A stretch of 7,960 nt of DNA, from positions 1-7,960 of the forward strand of contig JAQVGK010000144.1 of NCBI GenBank assembly GCA_028696755.1, written 5' to 3'. Below the pieces are notes generated by a model. It was not told where the DNA came from. It saw only the letters and a program-made list of their open reading frames with translations, and ran no database searches. Positions 1,778 through 7,859 of this stretch are shown in pieces. This DNA is from Bacteroidales bacterium (GTDB lineage Bacteria > Bacteroidota > Bacteroidia > Bacteroidales > ML635J-15). Position 1 is the first letter of the stretch, and each line of letters opens with the position of its first letter. The position numbers and the translations under genes were made by a program.

Positions 1778-1812
1778 CTGTCATAGTTTGACAGTCTGGA
1801 TTGTTATCTTTA
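1778..1812 (+). promoter_or_regulatory. Operator 1 and promoter of the WYL regulator gene
   Basis: A perfect inverted repeat CTGTCA-TAGTT-TGACAG (1778-1794) is followed, 14 nt after its TTTG (1787-1790), by TATCTTTA (1805-1812), a one-mismatch version of the Bacteroidota -7 box TAnnTTTG. The ATG at 1834 lies 21 nt after the box. The same arrangement recurs at 2753-2786 and 5062-5098. It fits autoregulation by the WYL protein; the repeat covers the region where the -33 element and spacer would lie. Confidence 0.7.
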
Positions 1813-1833
1813 TGCTCGAAAAGAATAAATGAT

Positions 1834-2760
1834 ATGTCAAAAAGAACATTTTTTAAACGGTATATATGGCTCTTTGATTTAATAAAGAATAACCCGTATA
1901 TAACTCTTAATGAAATAATTGAAAAATACAACAATTCAATTCTTTGGAATGATGAAACAGTTGGATTCTCAAAAAGAACATTCCACAGGGATATTAATGA
2001 AATTGAAGAATTATTTGGGGTAGAAATAGAGTACGACAATGTAAATAAGGGCTATTTTATTGATTATGAAATAATCCAAGAGAACACCTCTTTACTAATT
2101 GAATCTTACAGAATTATTAACACCTTAGAGCAATTTAAGGAAATAAAGAAATACATTTCAACTGGTTTTTACAATACAGGAAGTGAGCACATATCAGCAA
2201 TTCTTTGTGCCATTAAGAATAAAAACACTATTGAGTTTTCCTATTACAAGTATGTTGGAGGAGAGTTTTCGCAAAGAGAAATTGAACCTTACTTTGTAAA
2301 AGAATTTAAGTTCAGATGGTATGTAGTTGGAAAAGACATTGAAGATAATCAGGTTAAAACTTTCGCTTTAGAACGAATTCAAGGAAATACTTTAATTATC
2401 AAAACAAACGCAACTTATCAAATCCCAGAAGATATTAACCCCGAGAATTTCTTTGATGATACTTTCGGAATTTTTAAACTGCAAAATACAGAACCAGAAA
2501 AAGTTGAACTATCATTTAGTCCGTTAAAAGGTAAATTTATTAAATCCGTTCCTCTCCATAAATCACAAAAGTTGTTGATTGACAATGAAACAGAATTTAG
2601 AATACAATTGCAATTACAAATAACTCACGACTTTATAATGGAAATTCTTTCACACGGATGTGATGTAGTTGTATTAAAACCTGCAAGTTTAGCCGAAAGG
2701 ATTAAAAACGAACTGGAACAAAGCATTAAACACTACAATAAGAATCACAGTATGCCATAG
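1834..2760 (+). CDS. WYL-domain HTH transcriptional regulator
   Basis: This 308-aa protein has the usual WYL-regulator layout: an N-terminal winged HTH (about 8-75, recognition-helix region FSKRTFHRDINEIEELF), a WYL domain (about 118-190, with IEFSYYKY, REIEPYFVKEFKFRWYVVGKD and FALERI) and a C-terminal WCX-like region (about 222-300, ending ILSHGCDVVVLKPASLAERI). The name-giving triad reads W162-Y163-V164. WYL domains sense ligands such as nucleic-acid fragments or nucleotides; CapW and BrxR, of this type, control CBASS and BREX defence loci. I chose ATG 1834 over an in-frame TTG at 1801 because the predicted -7 box (1805-1812) lies downstream of that TTG. The stop codon is inside operator 2. 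Likely job: a local regulator of itself and of the two downstream units carrying the same inverted repeat. Family assignment is strong; target assignment is inferred. Confidence 0.9.
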   Translation: MSKRTFFKRYIWLFDLIKNNPYITLNEIIEKYNNSILWNDETVGFSKRTFHRDINEIEELFGVEIEYDNVNKGYFIDYEIIQENTSLLIESYRIINTLEQFKEIKKYISTGFYNTGSEHISAILCAIKNKNTIEFSYYKYVGGEFSQREIEPYFVKEFKFRWYVVGKDIEDNQVKTFALERIQGNTLIIKTNATYQIPEDINPENFFDDTFGIFKLQNTEPEKVELSFSPLKGKFIKSVPLHKSQKLLIDNETEFRIQLQLQITHDFIMEILSHGCDVVVLKPASLAERIKNELEQSIKHYNKNHSMP

Positions 2761-2786
2761 TTTGGCAGCCATTGAGCCTATTTTTG
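2753..2786 (+). promoter_or_regulatory. Operator 2 and promoter of the 361-aa protein/nuclease operon
   Basis: The inverted repeat TGCCA-TAGTT-TGGCA (2753-2767) overlaps the WYL stop codon. Its TTTG (2761-2764) is 14 nt upstream of a perfect -7 box TATTTTTG (2779-2786), and the ATG at 2805 follows 18 nt after the box. Compared with operator 1, the central TAGTT is identical and both arms changed together (T to C left, A to G right), so the dyad symmetry has been kept. Confidence 0.75.
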
Positions 2787-2804
2787 TAGTAAAACAATCC
2801 TACT

Positions 2805-3890
2805 ATGATAGACGCCAACACAATAGAAAAAGAATTGCTTAGATGCATAGAGATTTTTATACTTCAAGCAGATTACAATGAATTTGCAAATTACATAAGT
2901 AAGTTAACGGACTTAGGATATAGAGTCCATATTAAAGTAAACCCCGATAAAAAACTATACAATTTCATTTTAAAACAATACAAACCAGACGATAGTAAAT
3001 TACTGTCAAAAAAAGAAAATCTAACTCAACTAGTTCTAACAGAGAAATTCGCTGCAATTCGTTCACAAGATTTTGAATACGCTGTTAAGTTACGAAATTT
3101 AGAAAATGAGATTGAATATATTTCAGAAGAAGAGGTAATCAGAACAATTGCAACAACAATAAACCTGAAATTTGAATACTCAATCGCTATACAATTACAA
3201 GAAATCTATATTGTTATTCAATCGGAACTTCACTTTTTGAAATATCTTGAAAATGACCTTTTTAAAATTATAAATCGCAGTTATTCGCTTAAGATTGAGA
3301 GCATAAAAGAGAAGATAGTTGACGATATAAAACGGAATACATCTATTAGAAAACAACTTGAAAAAAAATTTGAGTATGAAAATGAGTACTGCAAAGCCTT
3401 TGTTGCTTATGTTGCCCCAAATAGGTCAGAAGAAATTATTTATTTACAGCCTTTCAGTAACCTTGACAAAAAACCTGCAATTTCTTTAAAAGAGCATTTA
3501 AATGAAATTGATTGCTCTGACATCAGGTCGTTAACCTTGCTTTGCACGTACTACCTCGAATTGCAAAAGCCATTAATGCCTTATGTTGGAATCAAGAACC
3601 CTATAATTGATGAAATTCTAGCTGATTCTTTAGGTTGGCTTGCATACCCACACCAACTTATTACGCTGTTTTCGCTTGCAACGGGTATCAATAGAATGGA
3701 AAAAATTGATAAATTCGTTGAAGATTTTAATAATAACAACCAGAGAGAAATTGATGTTTATTTAAGTCAACCTTTTTTGGGGGCAACTTTGGGAGAGATA
3801 GTTAACGAAAGAATTTTATCAAAACAAAGAAATCTAAAGTACCCGAATTACAATTATGGGTATAAAATTTATAATTATCTATTTGAGTAA
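2805..3890 (+). CDS. Unrecognised 361-aa protein with a UVR-like motif, partner of the PD-(D/E)XK nuclease
   Basis: I do not recognise the full-length family. The protein is soluble, with no signal peptide or membrane segment. The one local resemblance is AAIRSQDF followed by EYAVKLRNLENEIE (about residues 83-104), close to the UVR helical-hairpin motif found in UvrB, UvrC and McsA, where it mediates protein contacts. Residues about 105-200 are strongly helical and charged. The C-terminal third (about 240-340) is helical with conserved-looking stretches such as ILADSLGWLAYPHQL and FLGATLGEIV. It is the first gene after operator 2, and the nuclease follows 15 nt later, so the two are almost certainly co-transcribed and probably form one functional unit, for example sensor or adaptor plus effector. 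That role is inference. A domain of a known defence protein too divergent to see by eye remains possible. Confidence 0.75.
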   Translation: MIDANTIEKELLRCIEIFILQADYNEFANYISKLTDLGYRVHIKVNPDKKLYNFILKQYKPDDSKLLSKKENLTQLVLTEKFAAIRSQDFEYAVKLRNLENEIEYISEEEVIRTIATTINLKFEYSIAIQLQEIYIVIQSELHFLKYLENDLFKIINRSYSLKIESIKEKIVDDIKRNTSIRKQLEKKFEYENEYCKAFVAYVAPNRSEEIIYLQPFSNLDKKPAISLKEHLNEIDCSDIRSLTLLCTYYLELQKPLMPYVGIKNPIIDEILADSLGWLAYPHQLITLFSLATGINRMEKIDKFVEDFNNNNQREIDVYLSQPFLGATLGEIVNERILSKQRNLKYPNYNYGYKIYNYLFE

Positions 3891-3905
3891 AAACATATTA
3901 TAATT

Positions 3906-5048
3906 ATGGACAGACTAATTTCTCTTTTAAAAGAGGTTAAAGCAATAAGCGAGAAGTACGAAGAAATATCTCTATTGAAGGGGGAAAAATTTAATCTATT
4001 TGACATTCTCGACAGGCGCACTGATGAGGTGAAAACTCACTCTGCTATGATTGCAGAATTACTTAACCCAAAGGGGTCACACGGTTTAGGTGATGAATTT
4101 CTGAAGTTATTCCTGAATTATTTAAACACGAATGTTCTTGAGAAACAAAATCGGATAGTGTTTCAAGATGTTTCAAACACATCTGTATTTACAGAATACT
4201 ACATTGGGGAAATTAATGATGAAAAAGCAGTAGGGGGGCGAATTGATATCTATCTCTCTAATAAACAGTTCAATATTTGTATTGAAAATAAAATTTTTGC
4301 AGGAGACCAACATCTACAATTACTCCGTTATCATAACTTTTTGAATAACAAAACAGGCAAACTGCTTATTTATCTTACTTTAAATGGTGATGACCCGAAT
4401 GACACAAGCATTAAGTGTATAGAAAAAAATATATGCTTAATGAAAGATGTTGATTACTATGGCATTTCTTATAGCGTAGACATCCTAAATTGGCTTCAAG
4501 AGTGCTTAAAATCAAGCGTTTCTTATCCAATATTGCGCGAATCAATTAATCAGTACATTATTCTTATAAAGAGTTTAACTAACCAATTAACATCAACACT
4601 TATGGAGGAGCAAGTAAAAAAGGCTATACTTAATGATATTGCTAGTGCCGAGATTATTAAAGATAATTTTGACAAAGCCGTTGAAGTTGTTGCAAATAGG
4701 CTCAGAGACGAAGTGCTAGAAGAGTTGCAAAATTACTACCCAAGTGCTAAAAGAGAGAACGCTAGGTCAAACTTAATCAGCATATTTATACCCGTTTCGA
4801 ATGGGCGGCTTGGTATAGAATCTTTTAATGGTAAGGGGATATTTATGAACAAAGCCCTTTTTGTTGGCTTATTAATGCATAACCAAGAAAATCAAAAATG
4901 GGAATGGGAGAACTGTACTCAAATTTTCGACAAAAAAAAGCTTTACGAAAAATTACAGAATTTTGAAAAAGGAGACATTGGTATTGTAAATGAAATAGTT
5001 GACAAGGTTAAAGAATACATAAATACTAAAAATATAGAGGTTCGGTAA
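3906..5048 (+). CDS. PD-(D/E)XK nuclease superfamily protein (PDDEXK_4-like)
   Basis: This 380-aa protein shows the PDDEXK_4 pattern. An N-terminal segment FNLFDILDRRTDEVKTHS with E41 and H45 leads into AELLNPKGSHGLGDEFLKLF. The catalytic core follows: GGRIDIYL (D114), ICIENKI (E127 and K129, the E-x-K pair) and DQHLQLLRY (Q135), then the strand KLLIYLTLNGDDP. All expected metal-binding and catalytic residues seem present, so it is probably an active Mg-dependent DNA (or RNA) nuclease. The C-terminal half (about 190-380) is helical and ends in a charged region. Family members occur in restriction- and defence-associated loci but most lack an assigned substrate. The gene follows its partner by 15 nt and has no promoter of its own, so operator 2 controls both. 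Superfamily call is firm; target and trigger are unknown. Confidence 0.85.
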   Translation: MDRLISLLKEVKAISEKYEEISLLKGEKFNLFDILDRRTDEVKTHSAMIAELLNPKGSHGLGDEFLKLFLNYLNTNVLEKQNRIVFQDVSNTSVFTEYYIGEINDEKAVGGRIDIYLSNKQFNICIENKIFAGDQHLQLLRYHNFLNNKTGKLLIYLTLNGDDPNDTSIKCIEKNICLMKDVDYYGISYSVDILNWLQECLKSSVSYPILRESINQYIILIKSLTNQLTSTLMEEQVKKAILNDIASAEIIKDNFDKAVEVVANRLRDEVLEELQNYYPSAKRENARSNLISIFIPVSNGRLGIESFNGKGIFMNKALFVGLLMHNQENQKWEWENCTQIFDKKKLYEKLQNFEKGDIGIVNEIVDKVKEYINTKNIEVR

Positions 5049-5061
5049 AAACATCTACAGC

Positions 5062-5098
5062 GTGCGCCACCCTTTGGCACACCCCCGCACTACCTTTG
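5062..5098 (+). promoter_or_regulatory. Operator 3 and promoter of the ATPase/secreted-protein pair
   Basis: Inverted repeat GTGCGCCA-CCCTT-TGGCACAC (arms 5062-5069 and 5075-5082, one mismatched pair) contains TTTG (5073-5076). After 14 nt comes a perfect -7 box TACCTTTG (5091-5098). The spacing equals that of operators 1 and 2, though the centre differs (CCCTT versus TAGTT) and the arms are longer. ATG 5127 lies 28 nt after the box. The hairpin is followed by CCCCGC rather than a T-run, so it is not a good terminator for the nuclease gene. Confidence 0.65.
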
Positions 5099-5126: not shown

Positions 5127-5792
5127 ATGGAATCAATTGAACTACCAATTGGGCTAACTGCTGTTGGCGGGTTAAAGGGTGAGGGCAAAACTTCATTTTG
5201 CCTCAAACTCGCCAACCACTTAGCCCAAAGGGAAAAGGTACTATTTATTAGCTACCAAGATTATAAGGAGAAAATCAAAGAACACCTTATAAGCACTGAC
5301 AGAAGTATTAATCCAGGGCTTAAGATTAGGACAGATTTTGAGTACTTTGGGTTGGATACTTTCGTAAAATTGATGTGGCACTTAGAAAAAAAATCCTACT
5401 CAACAGTTTTTATTGACAACAGCGATTTTCTAATCAAATACGAACCTTGGGATAGGGCATACGGTGACGTTGATGAATTTATTGAAGCGCTTGAGCTTAT
5501 GCATCATATTTGCAGAGTTAAAGTAGTCTTCACTATAAACATTGGGCAAAAAGCAGATTATTCCAGAAAGTATCCAATGCTTAGAGATTTTAATTCGTCA
5601 AGGCTCATACCCAATAAATGTCGTCAGGTACTAGCCATTTATCGACCACACTATCACGGTTATATGGAAGACGAACAAGGTGTTCCTCTAAAAAACCGAT
5701 TTGACATTTATTGTCTTAAAAATCAATCCGATAAAACTCTTATCAAAACAATGGACTGGTCAAATTTTGAGAGCAAACATTTTTCTAATTAG
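5127..5792 (+). CDS. Short DnaB/RecA-like P-loop ATPase
   Basis: This 221-aa protein is a single RecA-fold domain. Walker A is GLKGEGKTS (15-23). KVLFISYQD (37-45) matches the DnaB strand that follows the first helix, and STVFIDNSD (92-100) is Walker B. MLRDFNSSRLIPNKCRQVLAIYRPHY (151-176) parallels the DnaB segment in which a LRESG-type element is followed by a VLxIYRP-type strand; DIYCLKNQSDKT (193-204) parallels the AKxRNGPxG strand. DnaB itself is over 400 residues with an N-terminal primase-interacting domain, which is absent here. It may therefore be an ATPase or DNA-translocating motor rather than a replicative helicase. It is first in a two-gene unit behind operator 3. Role in the island (helicase accessory, sensor or signalling ATPase) cannot be told from sequence alone. 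Confidence 0.8.
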   Translation: MESIELPIGLTAVGGLKGEGKTSFCLKLANHLAQREKVLFISYQDYKEKIKEHLISTDRSINPGLKIRTDFEYFGLDTFVKLMWHLEKKSYSTVFIDNSDFLIKYEPWDRAYGDVDEFIEALELMHHICRVKVVFTINIGQKADYSRKYPMLRDFNSSRLIPNKCRQVLAIYRPHYHGYMEDEQGVPLKNRFDIYCLKNQSDKTLIKTMDWSNFESKHFSN

Positions 5793-5816: not shown

Positions 5817-6911
5817 ATGAAACTATATATCAGCATATTAATTGCAATCACCTCATTTTGCATAAATAGCAATGCTCAAATTTCTGTAACTACAGTCGAG
5901 AGAAAAGAGCCAGAGAAAAAAGTAATCCCAGCCCCTGCATACGATAGCTTAGAAGCGTTTGTCAGTTACGGTTCTTACTATAGGGCAAATTGGCAGATAC
6001 CAAAAGATGAAAAATGTACTGTAGAGGAATTTTACAAAAGGTACGTTGGTCTACAAATTTATTACCCTTCCTATAGTAATGATTTTAATAAAACCAGTAC
6101 AATTTTCTTTACGGATTCAACGCCAATAAAATATTTAACGTGGGAAGAAGTTGGAGATAAATACTATACCATTCTCAAAATTCATCCATCTTTGGATAAA
6201 ACCCAATACTACGACCTAATAAAACAGGAAAAAAACATTGGGCTTGGTTTAAGTGGCGCATTGCTTTTGGAACTAAAAGACGAAACCTCAGGACAAACAA
6301 TATATTCGGTTGAATCAGATTATAGCAATAGGTTTATTTTAGTTCCATATTTTGTAAAAAAACAGCAATTACTTAAAAACAATACCCTTGTAGCAACGGA
6401 TTACATTAGTGCTCGCAAGTTTCCCGATGTTGATGAATTCTTAAGAGTTTATGAAAAGACCGAGTTGACAGGAGAATTCACATTAATCCGTAGCGAAGTT
6501 CTCGGCAAGTCCAATAACCCTGATTCTGACGAAAGTATAATTCTCGTTTATATACTACGGAATAACGAAAATGCATTTTTGCTTTTCAACGATAACCAAA
6601 GGGGTCGTCCTGTTTTTAGTGATGTAATAACGTTTAAAGATGAGTTACAGAAACAGGAAAGCAAAAAGGTTGCAGAAGAGAAAGCAAGAATTGATGGTTA
6701 TGTAAAAAAGTACGGTGCTGAATACGGTAAATTAGTTGCAAAGAATCAGATAAAAATTGGAATGACAAAACAAATGTGTGAGGATGCTTGGGGAATAACT
6801 TTTGACATTAAGAGGTTTACCGATAGTGCTGAGGAAAAAGAAATCTGGCGTTACGTAGGCAAAGGAAGACTAATTTTTGTAAACGGTATTCTATCAAACA
6901 TTATTGAGTAA
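5817..6911 (+). CDS. Secreted protein with C-terminal BamE/SmpA-like domain
   Basis: This 364-aa protein starts with a Sec signal peptide (MKLYISILIAITSFCINSNA, cleavage probably before Q21). There is no lipobox Cys at the cleavage point, so it should be periplasmic or exported rather than a lipoprotein. Residues about 40-280 are of mixed strand/helix composition and I do not recognise them. A charged helix (about 275-305, QKQESKKVAEEKARIDGYV) leads to IKIGMTKQMCEDAWG (about 312-326), then EIWRYV and LIFVNGILSNII. This is the pattern of the BamE/SmpA/OmlA small domain, where GM, the helix, W-Y and F-NG-L recur. Such domains mediate envelope protein contacts. It starts 24 nt after the ATPase gene and has no separate promoter, so an envelope protein is transcribed with a cytoplasmic ATPase from operator 3. 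N-terminal function is unknown; the C-terminal call is moderately sure. Confidence 0.75.
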   Translation: MKLYISILIAITSFCINSNAQISVTTVERKEPEKKVIPAPAYDSLEAFVSYGSYYRANWQIPKDEKCTVEEFYKRYVGLQIYYPSYSNDFNKTSTIFFTDSTPIKYLTWEEVGDKYYTILKIHPSLDKTQYYDLIKQEKNIGLGLSGALLLELKDETSGQTIYSVESDYSNRFILVPYFVKKQQLLKNNTLVATDYISARKFPDVDEFLRVYEKTELTGEFTLIRSEVLGKSNNPDSDESIILVYILRNNENAFLLFNDNQRGRPVFSDVITFKDELQKQESKKVAEEKARIDGYVKKYGAEYGKLVAKNQIKIGMTKQMCEDAWGITFDIKRFTDSAEEKEIWRYVGKGRLIFVNGILSNIIE

Positions 6912-6939: not shown

Positions 6940-6984
6940 TTTGTTATAATTTAACCTTATTAACTTTTACAATAGAATTGTAAA
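6940..6984 (+). promoter_or_regulatory. Possible promoter and inverted repeat upstream of the UDG-like gene
   Basis: The 80-nt gap holds TTTG (6940-6943), then 17 nt, then TAACTTTT (6961-6968), a one-mismatch -7 box. Overlapping it is a perfect inverted repeat TTTACAA-TAGAA-TTGTAAA (6966-6984), ending 7 nt before ATG 6992. Arm spacing is again 5 nt, but the sequence and its position downstream of the -7 box differ from operators 1-3, so it may be bound by another protein or be chance in AT-rich DNA. Confidence 0.35.
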
Positions 6985-6991
6985 TACAGAA

Positions 6992-7639
6992 ATGGTTATG
7001 GAAGAGAAAATTCGCATAAATTGCAGTAAATGTAAGGACTATGGTTTTGAATTCCGTTCAAAACATAATATATCACCACTTGACTGTATTGATGGTAATG
7101 CTAATGCTGAAATCTGGATAATTGGTTTAAACCCAAAAAATAAATTGGGGCATATTGAAACAAGAAGCCAAAAGGATTTTCAATTTTTCAATCCAAATGG
7201 TCATCAATATTTTAGAGATTTCAAAAAAGTGTCAACTAGGCTTTATAGCAATTGGGAGCGTGACGATAGAAATATTGCCCATATAGATTTGGTTAAATGT
7301 TTCTCTGAAACCTTCCCACCTATGGTTGAGAAAAACGGAAAAAACAATCAAAGGTTTATTGTGGACAATTGTATTGGATATTTGAAACTGCAAATAATAA
7401 AGTATAAGCCAAAAATTATTATTTGTAATGGTTCACCTGTATGCTGGGAAATTATGCGATTACTTCCACCCAAACAAGACTATGACCTTGACTGCTTAAC
7501 ATCGTATTGTACAAATGTTGACAATCACAACTTCTGGATTGTTCTTTCTGGTTTTATCGGAAGGATAGACAATAGAAATAAGAGAAGATTGGGAATGGAG
7601 ATAGAGCAAATAATTGAAAGTGAGAACATTTCATATTAA
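6992..7639 (+). CDS. Uracil-DNA-glycosylase-like superfamily protein
   Basis: The 215-aa protein has the UDG-like fold pattern. An N-terminal CSKC (C11, C14) is followed by AEIWIIGLNPK (39-49), the counterpart of the first active-site motif (GEAPG or GxNP). Next come IAHIDLVKCFSETFPP (95-110), like the NVVKCRPP segment of family-4 enzymes, then C127 with YLKLQIIKYKPKIIICNGSPV (130-150), like the C-x-P-L-x-x-QI...PK-x-II-x-x-G strand. C11, C14, C103 and C127 could hold a 4Fe-4S cluster as in family 4, although the C103-C127 gap is wider than usual. Where motif 2 normally gives HPS or a similar His, this protein has VLSGFIGRIDNRNKRRLG, so classical uracil excision is uncertain. The start is ATG 6992; ATG 6998 in the same frame is an alternative. 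It may be an unlinked passenger of the island or part of the same DNA-targeting programme. Confidence 0.75.
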   Translation: MVMEEKIRINCSKCKDYGFEFRSKHNISPLDCIDGNANAEIWIIGLNPKNKLGHIETRSQKDFQFFNPNGHQYFRDFKKVSTRLYSNWERDDRNIAHIDLVKCFSETFPPMVEKNGKNNQRFIVDNCIGYLKLQIIKYKPKIIICNGSPVCWEIMRLLPPKQDYDLDCLTSYCTNVDNHNFWIVLSGFIGRIDNRNKRRLGMEIEQIIESENISY

Positions 7640-7720
7640 ACTACTGAAAAAAATGTTTTAGAAAAAAGTACAAAATAAACTGAATACCAATACAGTAAAA
7701 TAAAAAACTGTTGGCAACAA
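7640..7720. other. AT-rich non-coding spacer after the last island gene
   Basis: No gene is visible on either strand. A weak 4-bp hairpin (ACTG...CAGT) precedes an A-rich stretch, and a short dyad TGTTG-g-CAACA occupies 7709-7719, immediately before the foldable element. No convincing T-tailed terminator was found. Confidence 0.5.
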
Positions 7721-7828
7721 GGGGTGTAACCATTTGGGCTGAAGGGTTACGGGAACAGGTCGGCACGCAGGCAACTTCTTAACGGGGGATAAATCCCAAG
7801 CCCAGCGCCCCCAAACTGGTCACACCCC
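7721..7828. other. GC-rich long-stem structured element at the right island end
   Basis: GGGGTGT (7721-7727) pairs with ACACCCC (7822-7828), ACCA (7729-7732) with TGGT (7817-7820), and TTTGGG (7733-7738) with CCCAAA (7810-7815). Together this is 17 pairs with one A/C mismatch and one bulged C (7816). Inside are smaller possible hairpins, such as GGGA-taaa-TCCC (7786-7797). The stem ends where the right direct repeat begins (7828). It stands out by its high GC content from the AT-rich island. It may be a recombination-site structure, an origin-like single-strand hairpin or an RNA; I recognise no named family. Confidence 0.6.
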
Positions 7829-7859
7829 CAGCCGATGTAAATAAAACAGTCTTCTTCAT
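7779..7859 (-). pseudogene. Displaced 5' end of the DUF302 gene, now a 26-codon chimeric ORF
   Basis: ATG at 7859-7857 encodes MKKTVLFTSA and then enters the shared CATCGGCTGG. Up to 7828 this is the true start of the DUF302 gene. Beyond it the frame runs into the island's structured element (GGVTSLGALG...) and stops at TAA 7781-7779. Rejoined to 1709 and leftward, the frame is continuous with the DUF302 remnant. Confidence 0.75.
7828..7837. repeat. Right junction copy of direct repeat CCAGCCGATG
   Basis: This copy is identical to 1710-1719 and in the same orientation. To its right is chromosomal sequence (start of DUF302); to its left is the island's foldable element, whose last stem base coincides with the repeat's first base. 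Confidence 0.75.

Follow-up and report, generated by a model that had tools for sequence, protein, structure and literature searches.

The window, i.e., the whole 7,960-nucleotide (nt) stretch of a Bacteroidales contig analysed here, carries a gene for a regulator of the WYL family and three inverted repeats, each lying over the -33 position of a putative promoter. Judged from the sequence, these repeats are very probably operators of the WYL protein and would define a local regulon composed of the regulator gene itself, an operon coding a 361-residue protein and a nuclease, and an operon coding an ATPase and a putatively secreted protein. The signal is the distance that separates the repeats from the -7 box. 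The geometry GNC-N7-GNC-N12-TAnnTTTR, which the three sites share when read from the inner bases of the repeats, was found 43 times in 455 kb near WYL genes and once in 400 kb without them, supporting the original prediction that three WYL operators define a regulon.

Three sites of common geometry in the window

The three operators and their -7 boxes are on the + strand. Operator 1 (1778..1794; dyad CTGTCA-TAGTT-TGACAG, core GTC-N7-GAC) covers the -33 position of the WYL gene promoter, whose -7 box TATCTTTA (1805..1812) lies 12 nt past the right GNC half-site and is separated by 14 nt from a TTTG at 1787-1790. Operator 2 (2753..2767; dyad TGCCA-TAGTT-TGGCA, core GCC-N7-GGC) overlaps the WYL stop codon (2758-2760) and has its TTTG at 2761-2764, 14 nt ahead of the -7 box TATTTTTG (2779..2786). 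Operator 3 (5062..5082; dyad GTGCGCCA-CCCTT-TGGCACAC with one mismatched pair, core GCC-N7-GGC) has its TTTG at 5073-5076, again 14 nt ahead of the -7 box TACCTTTG (5091..5098). The dyads themselves end 10, 11 and 8 nt upstream of their -7 boxes. A direct sequence check thus agreed with the original prediction in the letters of the repeats and in the 14-nt distances, and the positions confirmed that the sites precede the WYL gene, the 361-residue protein/nuclease operon and the ATPase/secreted protein operon, respectively.

The pattern TTTG-N14-TAYYTTTR matches three times on the two strands of the window, at operators 1–3 only, while its mean was 0.07 in dinucleotide shuffles, none of 200 reaching three matches. 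An inverted-repeat scan of the window returned 44 repeats with a net score of at least 6, among which dyad 1 is the sole operator; dyads alone are therefore ordinary and it is their common fixed spacing to the -7 box that is exceptional. Operators 1 and 2 do differ by a compensated T/A to C/G change, which had been read as preserving symmetry, but symmetry is no rule: the middle bases of the two GNC halves are complementary in 19 of 41 sites from many loci. A scan with Rfam at gathering scores gave no match in the window.

One close relative was compared (L001; WYL protein 86% identical over residues 57-308). Its sequence begins inside the WYL gene and hence lacks site 1. Sites 2 and 3 are kept with the 14-nt spacing, the cores being identical at 13/13 positions in both and the -7 boxes at 8/8 in both, against 6/12 (site 2) and 10/12 (site 3) for the 12 nt between core and -7 box. 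Note that the L001 genome sits in the same order-level set as genome G155 and that its Lutibacter label, or its binning, may be off.

Distribution of the geometry among WYL loci

A WYL match was present in 81/395 genomes of one order with the search centred on G155 and in 82/395 with the search centred on G001, which returned nearly the same positives and added no loci. In a second set, drawn as the order of genome G147, 139/390 genomes were positive; none of the listed positives of the first set reappears in it and this set is therefore presumably another order. The distant WYL loci show mostly 25-45% identity and are also found on plasmids and phage scaffolds. The near sample (455,263 bases) was composed of the window, L001, ten plasmid or phage loci and twenty WYL neighbourhoods of up to 20 kb. 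The far sample (400,000 bases) came from 13 of the 19 near-sample genomes, in stretches without a WYL relative at E 1e-3, the nearest stretch being ~12 kb from a WYL gene. Both were scanned with the pattern G.C.{k}G.C.{m}TA..TTT[AG] (k = 2-12, m = 4-21), the target cell k = 7, m = 12 being compared to the 197 other cells.

The target cell held 43 matches in the near sample, against a mean of 1.58 and a maximum of 9 in the other cells, and one match in the far sample (mean 1.14 and maximum 5 elsewhere). The 43 matches are hits, several per locus, distributed over 21/32 loci and forming 27 clusters at 70% identity. The loci used to shape the motif overlap the 455-kb set; L022 and L025 were left out of that step. 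The second set, of which 29 loci were scanned after the motif was fixed, is the only held-out sample, and there the target cell had 13 matches while the other cells averaged 0.27 and reached 3 at most. Chance repeats, or repeats of unrelated origin, would find an argument in how common dyads of this strength are in the window, but these spacing statistics, together with the conservation pattern in L001, leave such an origin a negligible probability.

The sites have an orientation and a context. Forty-one of the 43 lie on the same strand as the nearest WYL gene, and 42 of 56 sites are followed within 120 nt by the ATG of an open reading frame (ORF) of at least 100 codons, compared to 6.7% of random positions; a simple caller found no downstream ORF for 2/43 sites. 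A site lies ahead of the WYL gene itself in 26/44 loci, the window included, namely in 13/13 further first-order loci (mostly one closely related family) and in 13/31 others. In the second set it precedes 8/28 WYL genes, a count in which L110 gave no usable gene and the L100 site overlaps the script-chosen start codon. Six loci besides the window (L055, L065, L066, L068, L070 and L071) have three to five sites. Both half-sites are needed: the complete dyad gave 43 near matches and 1 far match, the right half only 39 and 27, and the left half only 35 and 36. The claim that the repeats are not explained by the promoter alone is supported by this requirement and by the confinement of the fixed geometry to WYL neighbourhoods in the sample.

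Some observations weigh against the generality and the strictness of this geometry. No such site occurs in 11/32 loci of the first set and 21/29 of the second, and it was found in only 3/9 plasmid loci. A spacing one base shorter or longer gave 5 and 3 matches, slightly above background, and TTTGNC-N11 and TTTGNC-N13 each gave 7 near matches against 1 far match. The expected conservation of the dyads at homologous WYL loci thus holds for a large part of them (43 against 1 in the first comparison, 13 against 0.27 in the second), not for the loci without a site, and among the WYL genes related to that of the window a good share, but not all, follow the rule. A genome-wide regulon was considered and rejected. 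The loose pattern TTTG-N14-TAYYTTTR was at control level across the G001 genome (49 matches against 54 for the reversed pattern), and this count, with the single far site in 400 kb away from WYL genes, makes a local regulon the better reading.

Promoter architecture and mode of action

A sequence logo was built from 41 of the 43 sites, those of the close relative L001 being dropped, with the T of the TA as position 0. It features C at -26 (31/41), GNC at -25 to -23, A at -22 (27/41), T at -18, -17 and -16 (33, 32 and 37 of 41), GNC at -15 to -13 and A at +12 (33/41). The site is made asymmetric by a T-tract that immediately precedes the right half (42, 41 and 50 of 54 sites). The A at +12 would fit a transcription start, which would put the right GNC around -26 and centre the dyad near -31. 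TAnnTTTG is reported at -12 to -5 in a Flavobacterium (PMC9723704) and the Bacteroides promoter consensus has TTTG around -33 (PMC7366714), in agreement with the claim that 14 nt is shorter than the usual promoter spacing. These promoters leave no room for a TTTG 19 to 21 nt ahead of the -7 box, those bases being occupied by the left GNC half-site. In ordinary promoters of the same genomes a canonical -33 element was not detectable in 61 boxes. The right half reads GGC in 3/13 own operators and in 16/28 target operators (Fisher p = 0.052) and no difference is claimed. A sigma-54 reading (-24/-12) of the TTGGCA parts was dropped, its spacing fitting, by eye, site 2 only. At four loci of the second set (L104, L105, L106 and L109), only 4 nt separate the -7 box from the script-chosen ATG of the WYL gene, whose mRNA may be leaderless.

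The same anatomy could be attributed to a promoter element, TTTGNC-N12-TAnnTTTG (-28/-7), recognised by RNA polymerase carrying an alternative sigma factor and palindromic by accident. The asymmetric spacer with its T-tract would suit such an element, and a second class of B. thetaiotaomicron promoters has its elements at -10 and -30 (PMC7366714). However, the right half alone is not enriched as the dyad is and the sites are restricted to the vicinity of WYL genes in the sample (43 near against 1 far), so that we consider this explanation highly improbable.

The regulator itself (1834..2760, + strand; 308 residues) matches the WYL (PF13280, E 5.4e-14) and WCX (PF25583, E 1.6e-8) domains and has a winged helix-turn-helix (HTH) by model. 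All three domains of DriD-type activators are thus present. The AlphaFold2 (AF2) model has a mean pLDDT (predicted local distance difference test) of 88.9 and its fold matches DriD, PafBC, BrxR and CapW. DriD, a homodimeric WYL activator of Caulobacter crescentus with the same domain layout and a similar length (327 residues), is the top VIA-align match. The segment between HTH and WYL is shorter in the window protein (residues 77-116, ~40, with one long helix) than in DriD, where a three-helix bundle of 55 residues lies between the two domains. Two arginines lie in the presumed recognition helix, R48 being nearly invariant and R52 invariant in 77 aligned sequences, and they may contact operator guanines.

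DriD binds ATACGAC(X)7GTCGTAT, i.e., GAC-N7-GTC, whose guanines are contacted by arginines; its sites lie over the -35 at a constant distance from the -10 and RNA polymerase is anchored there where the -35 is poor (PMC12340889). The GNC-N7-GNC cores of the window have the same geometry in 3/3 sites, matching the invariant guanines of CGAC-N7-GTCG, and lie likewise over the -33 at a constant distance from the -7 box (N12 in 3/3 sites). This equality of core and position makes a DriD-like activator the preferred reading. By this mechanism, the WYL protein would bind GNC-N7-GNC as a homodimer, with one half-site per winged HTH, and the dimer would sit where the sigma factor would seek the -33 element, replacing the missing element. 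The signal, by analogy to DriD, might be single-stranded DNA held by the WYL domain. The signal-bound dimer, at its fixed distance from the -7 box, would then hold RNA polymerase on an otherwise too weak promoter, and the signal would raise the regulator, the 361-residue protein/PD-(D/E)XK nuclease operon and the ATPase/secreted protein operon together. The nearly strict spacing favours activation, which we hold to be the probable mode of action provided that the sites are WYL operators; the combined reading of WYL operators and DriD-like homodimeric activation is somewhat favoured.

DriD and the window protein also differ. The window sites are beside the regulator gene, serving adjacent operons and the gene itself, and not ahead of the DNA repair genes named for DriD. 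The half-sites (GTC/GAC and GCC/GGC) differ from those of DriD in their middle base, and the -7 box is the TAnnTTTG of Bacteroidota. A further difference is that DriD does not act on its own gene while operator 1 precedes the WYL gene. The window protein is for this reason described as working like DriD and not as a DriD member. The site ahead of the WYL gene is also the main argument for repression or for a dual switch.

Repression would be of the BrxR/CapW type, the resting protein blocking the -33 region of active promoters, those of both operons and of the WYL gene, until a phage or damage signal arrives. BrxR and CapW are WYL repressors of BREX and CBASS that bind as homodimers to palindromes in regulator and defence gene promoters, as might be the case for the three window sites and for the candidate defence gene among their targets (PADLOC family PDC-S26). 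BrxR sites have the 5-nt arm spacing found in the window dyads. The frequency of own-promoter sites (26/44 loci) and the candidate defence genes nearby in the window and its relatives (in the latter, sites precede genes for a patatin effector and a SLOG protein, and genes for DUF262 proteins or dynamin-like GTPases lie close by) also speak for a repressor. The operator of CapW covers the -10 (PMC9122588), that of E. fergusonii BrxR lies downstream of the -10 (PMC9122601) and that of Acinetobacter BrxR lies over the -35 (PMC9122589), so that these repressors hold no single place. The window operators, over the -33, differ from the former two, yet their position is compatible with the BrxR family as a whole since the Acinetobacter operator overlaps the -35. 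Here, in contrast, a single spacing rises above the 197 others in both samples, those longer or shorter by one base being only modestly raised, and the site positions exclude a TTTG 19-21 nt before the -7 box. BrxR and CapW also have lower VIA-align Z scores, 13.1 (root-mean-square deviation (rmsd) 8.0, 213 residues aligned) and 11.7 (rmsd 10.4, 225 aligned). Repression is on these grounds unlikely, though to be taken seriously.

A MerR-like dual switch, in which a dimer permanently on the promoter represses without ligand and activates with it, would explain both the fixed dyad over the -33 region and the autoregulatory site. MerR promoters use a non-optimal spacing (PMC12340889). Against this switch, no WYL protein is so described in the literature passages covered, in which apo DriD is autoinhibited for DNA binding, and we regard it as rather improbable.

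Two actinobacterial systems complete the comparison with the activator preferred here. PafBC, which directs the RecA-independent DNA damage response of mycobacteria, is the first Foldseek match of the window protein and provides its best sequence match among solved structures (9fnd_X, E 3.2e-10). PafBC acts at the -26 element (PMC11804915, PMC10693628), about where the right GNC of the window sites is placed. It is a heterodimer with a non-palindromic site (PMC6789036), whereas the window has one WYL gene and palindromic sites of which both halves are needed; the dyad suggests that the window protein is a homodimer. SiwR of M. smegmatis, a homodimeric WYL activator, controls neighbouring genes from a 19-bp imperfect palindrome between -35 and -10, for which the -26 region is essential. 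It differs in its conserved triplet GGA at -26 and its actinobacterial promoter, and no multi-operon set of identical sites is described in the passages covered. For PafBC, the RecA-NDp motif has the same TTGTCR-N11-TA spacing, a likeness that carries no weight here. The letters of that motif are not printed in the passages covered of PMC6789036, PMC8223512 and PMC2897130.

Genes behind the operators and significance

The genes behind operators 2 and 3 form two operons, as judged from their positions on the + strand. The first codes for the 361-residue protein of no assigned function (2805..3890) and, 15 nt further, for the PD-(D/E)XK nuclease (3906..5048). The former carries a UvrB/UvrC-motif-like stretch (21.4 bits against a Pfam cut-off of 21.5), has a structure model too poor for use (pLDDT 41) and gave 15 proteins in a database search, the window's own included. 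The nuclease matches PF14281 (E 1.2e-37) and the PADLOC candidate defence family PDC-S26 (E 3.9e-97). The second operon codes for a 221-residue P-loop ATPase related to DnaB_C (5127..5792; PF03796, E 2.5e-8) and, 24 nt further, for a 364-residue protein (5817..6911) with a signal-peptide-like amino terminus by eye and no confident family. A search of viral contigs gave no relative of the WYL protein, the nuclease or the ATPase. A PD-(D/E)XK nuclease gene adjoins the WYL gene on a Chryseobacterium oryzae plasmid (L049), as in the window, and lies beside it on the opposite strand in a Segatella hominis plasmid (L047); a similar nuclease-like ORF was seen by eye in L025. Further downstream in the window, a perfect 8-bp dyad, TTTACAAT-aga-ATTGTAAA (6966-6984), which is not of the GNC-N7-GNC type, lies just upstream of a uracil-DNA-glycosylase-like ORF (6992-7639). 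Near the contig end, a long imperfect inverted repeat (7700-7840) resembles attC by eye; its single-strand fold is no better than that of shuffled sequences (z -0.43).

At other loci the sites precede, besides WYL genes, those of AAA ATPases (three loci), a SLOG-family protein, a DnaA-type ATPase, an FtsZ-like protein, an M15 peptidase, a TM2 protein, a peptidase M49 and a patatin. A Pfam scan of 20 downstream proteins left 8 without match at E 0.001 and 2 with sub-cut-off matches only. In a PADLOC scan of ten of them the patatin was the sole strong match (phospholipase effectors, E 2.6e-66). The FtsZ/tubulin-like gene (L066:18390-19307; PF00091, E 3.3e-35) is directly behind a WYL-type operator. 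Patatin-like phospholipase genes, 75% identical to each other, are behind such operators at L068:11201-12235 and L071:7771-8808, where they adjoin an M15 peptidase gene with its own operator, the L071 pair being named through identity to the L068 pair. Taken together, these loci resemble a collection of local regulons whose genes are varied and in part defence-like. The layout of the window itself resembles a known DNA damage switch, with the 361-residue protein/nuclease operon as an apparent phage defence candidate.

Among the best-ranked full-text matches no paper on WYL operators in Bacteroidota was found, most subscription journals being outside the coverage. Tentatively, the sites may represent a promoter class specific of Bacteroidota in which the WYL dimer site GNC-N7-GNC replaces the -33 element. 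Cassettes with several copies would then be self-contained, signal-triggered and self-amplifying switches, a counterpart for defence islands of the DriD and PafBC damage responses, and nucleases, patatin lipases, AAA, SLOG and FtsZ-like proteins could be the effectors behind the cassette copies. The rule GNC-N7-GNC-N12-TAnnTTTR near a WYL gene predicts the promoters under its control and hence yet unknown genes of the system. If activation is true, the way in which DriD anchors RNA polymerase would be extended from Caulobacter to a phylum whose housekeeping sigma factor and promoter are different, and the sensing of damage or single-stranded DNA could be tied to defence islands in Bacteroidota.

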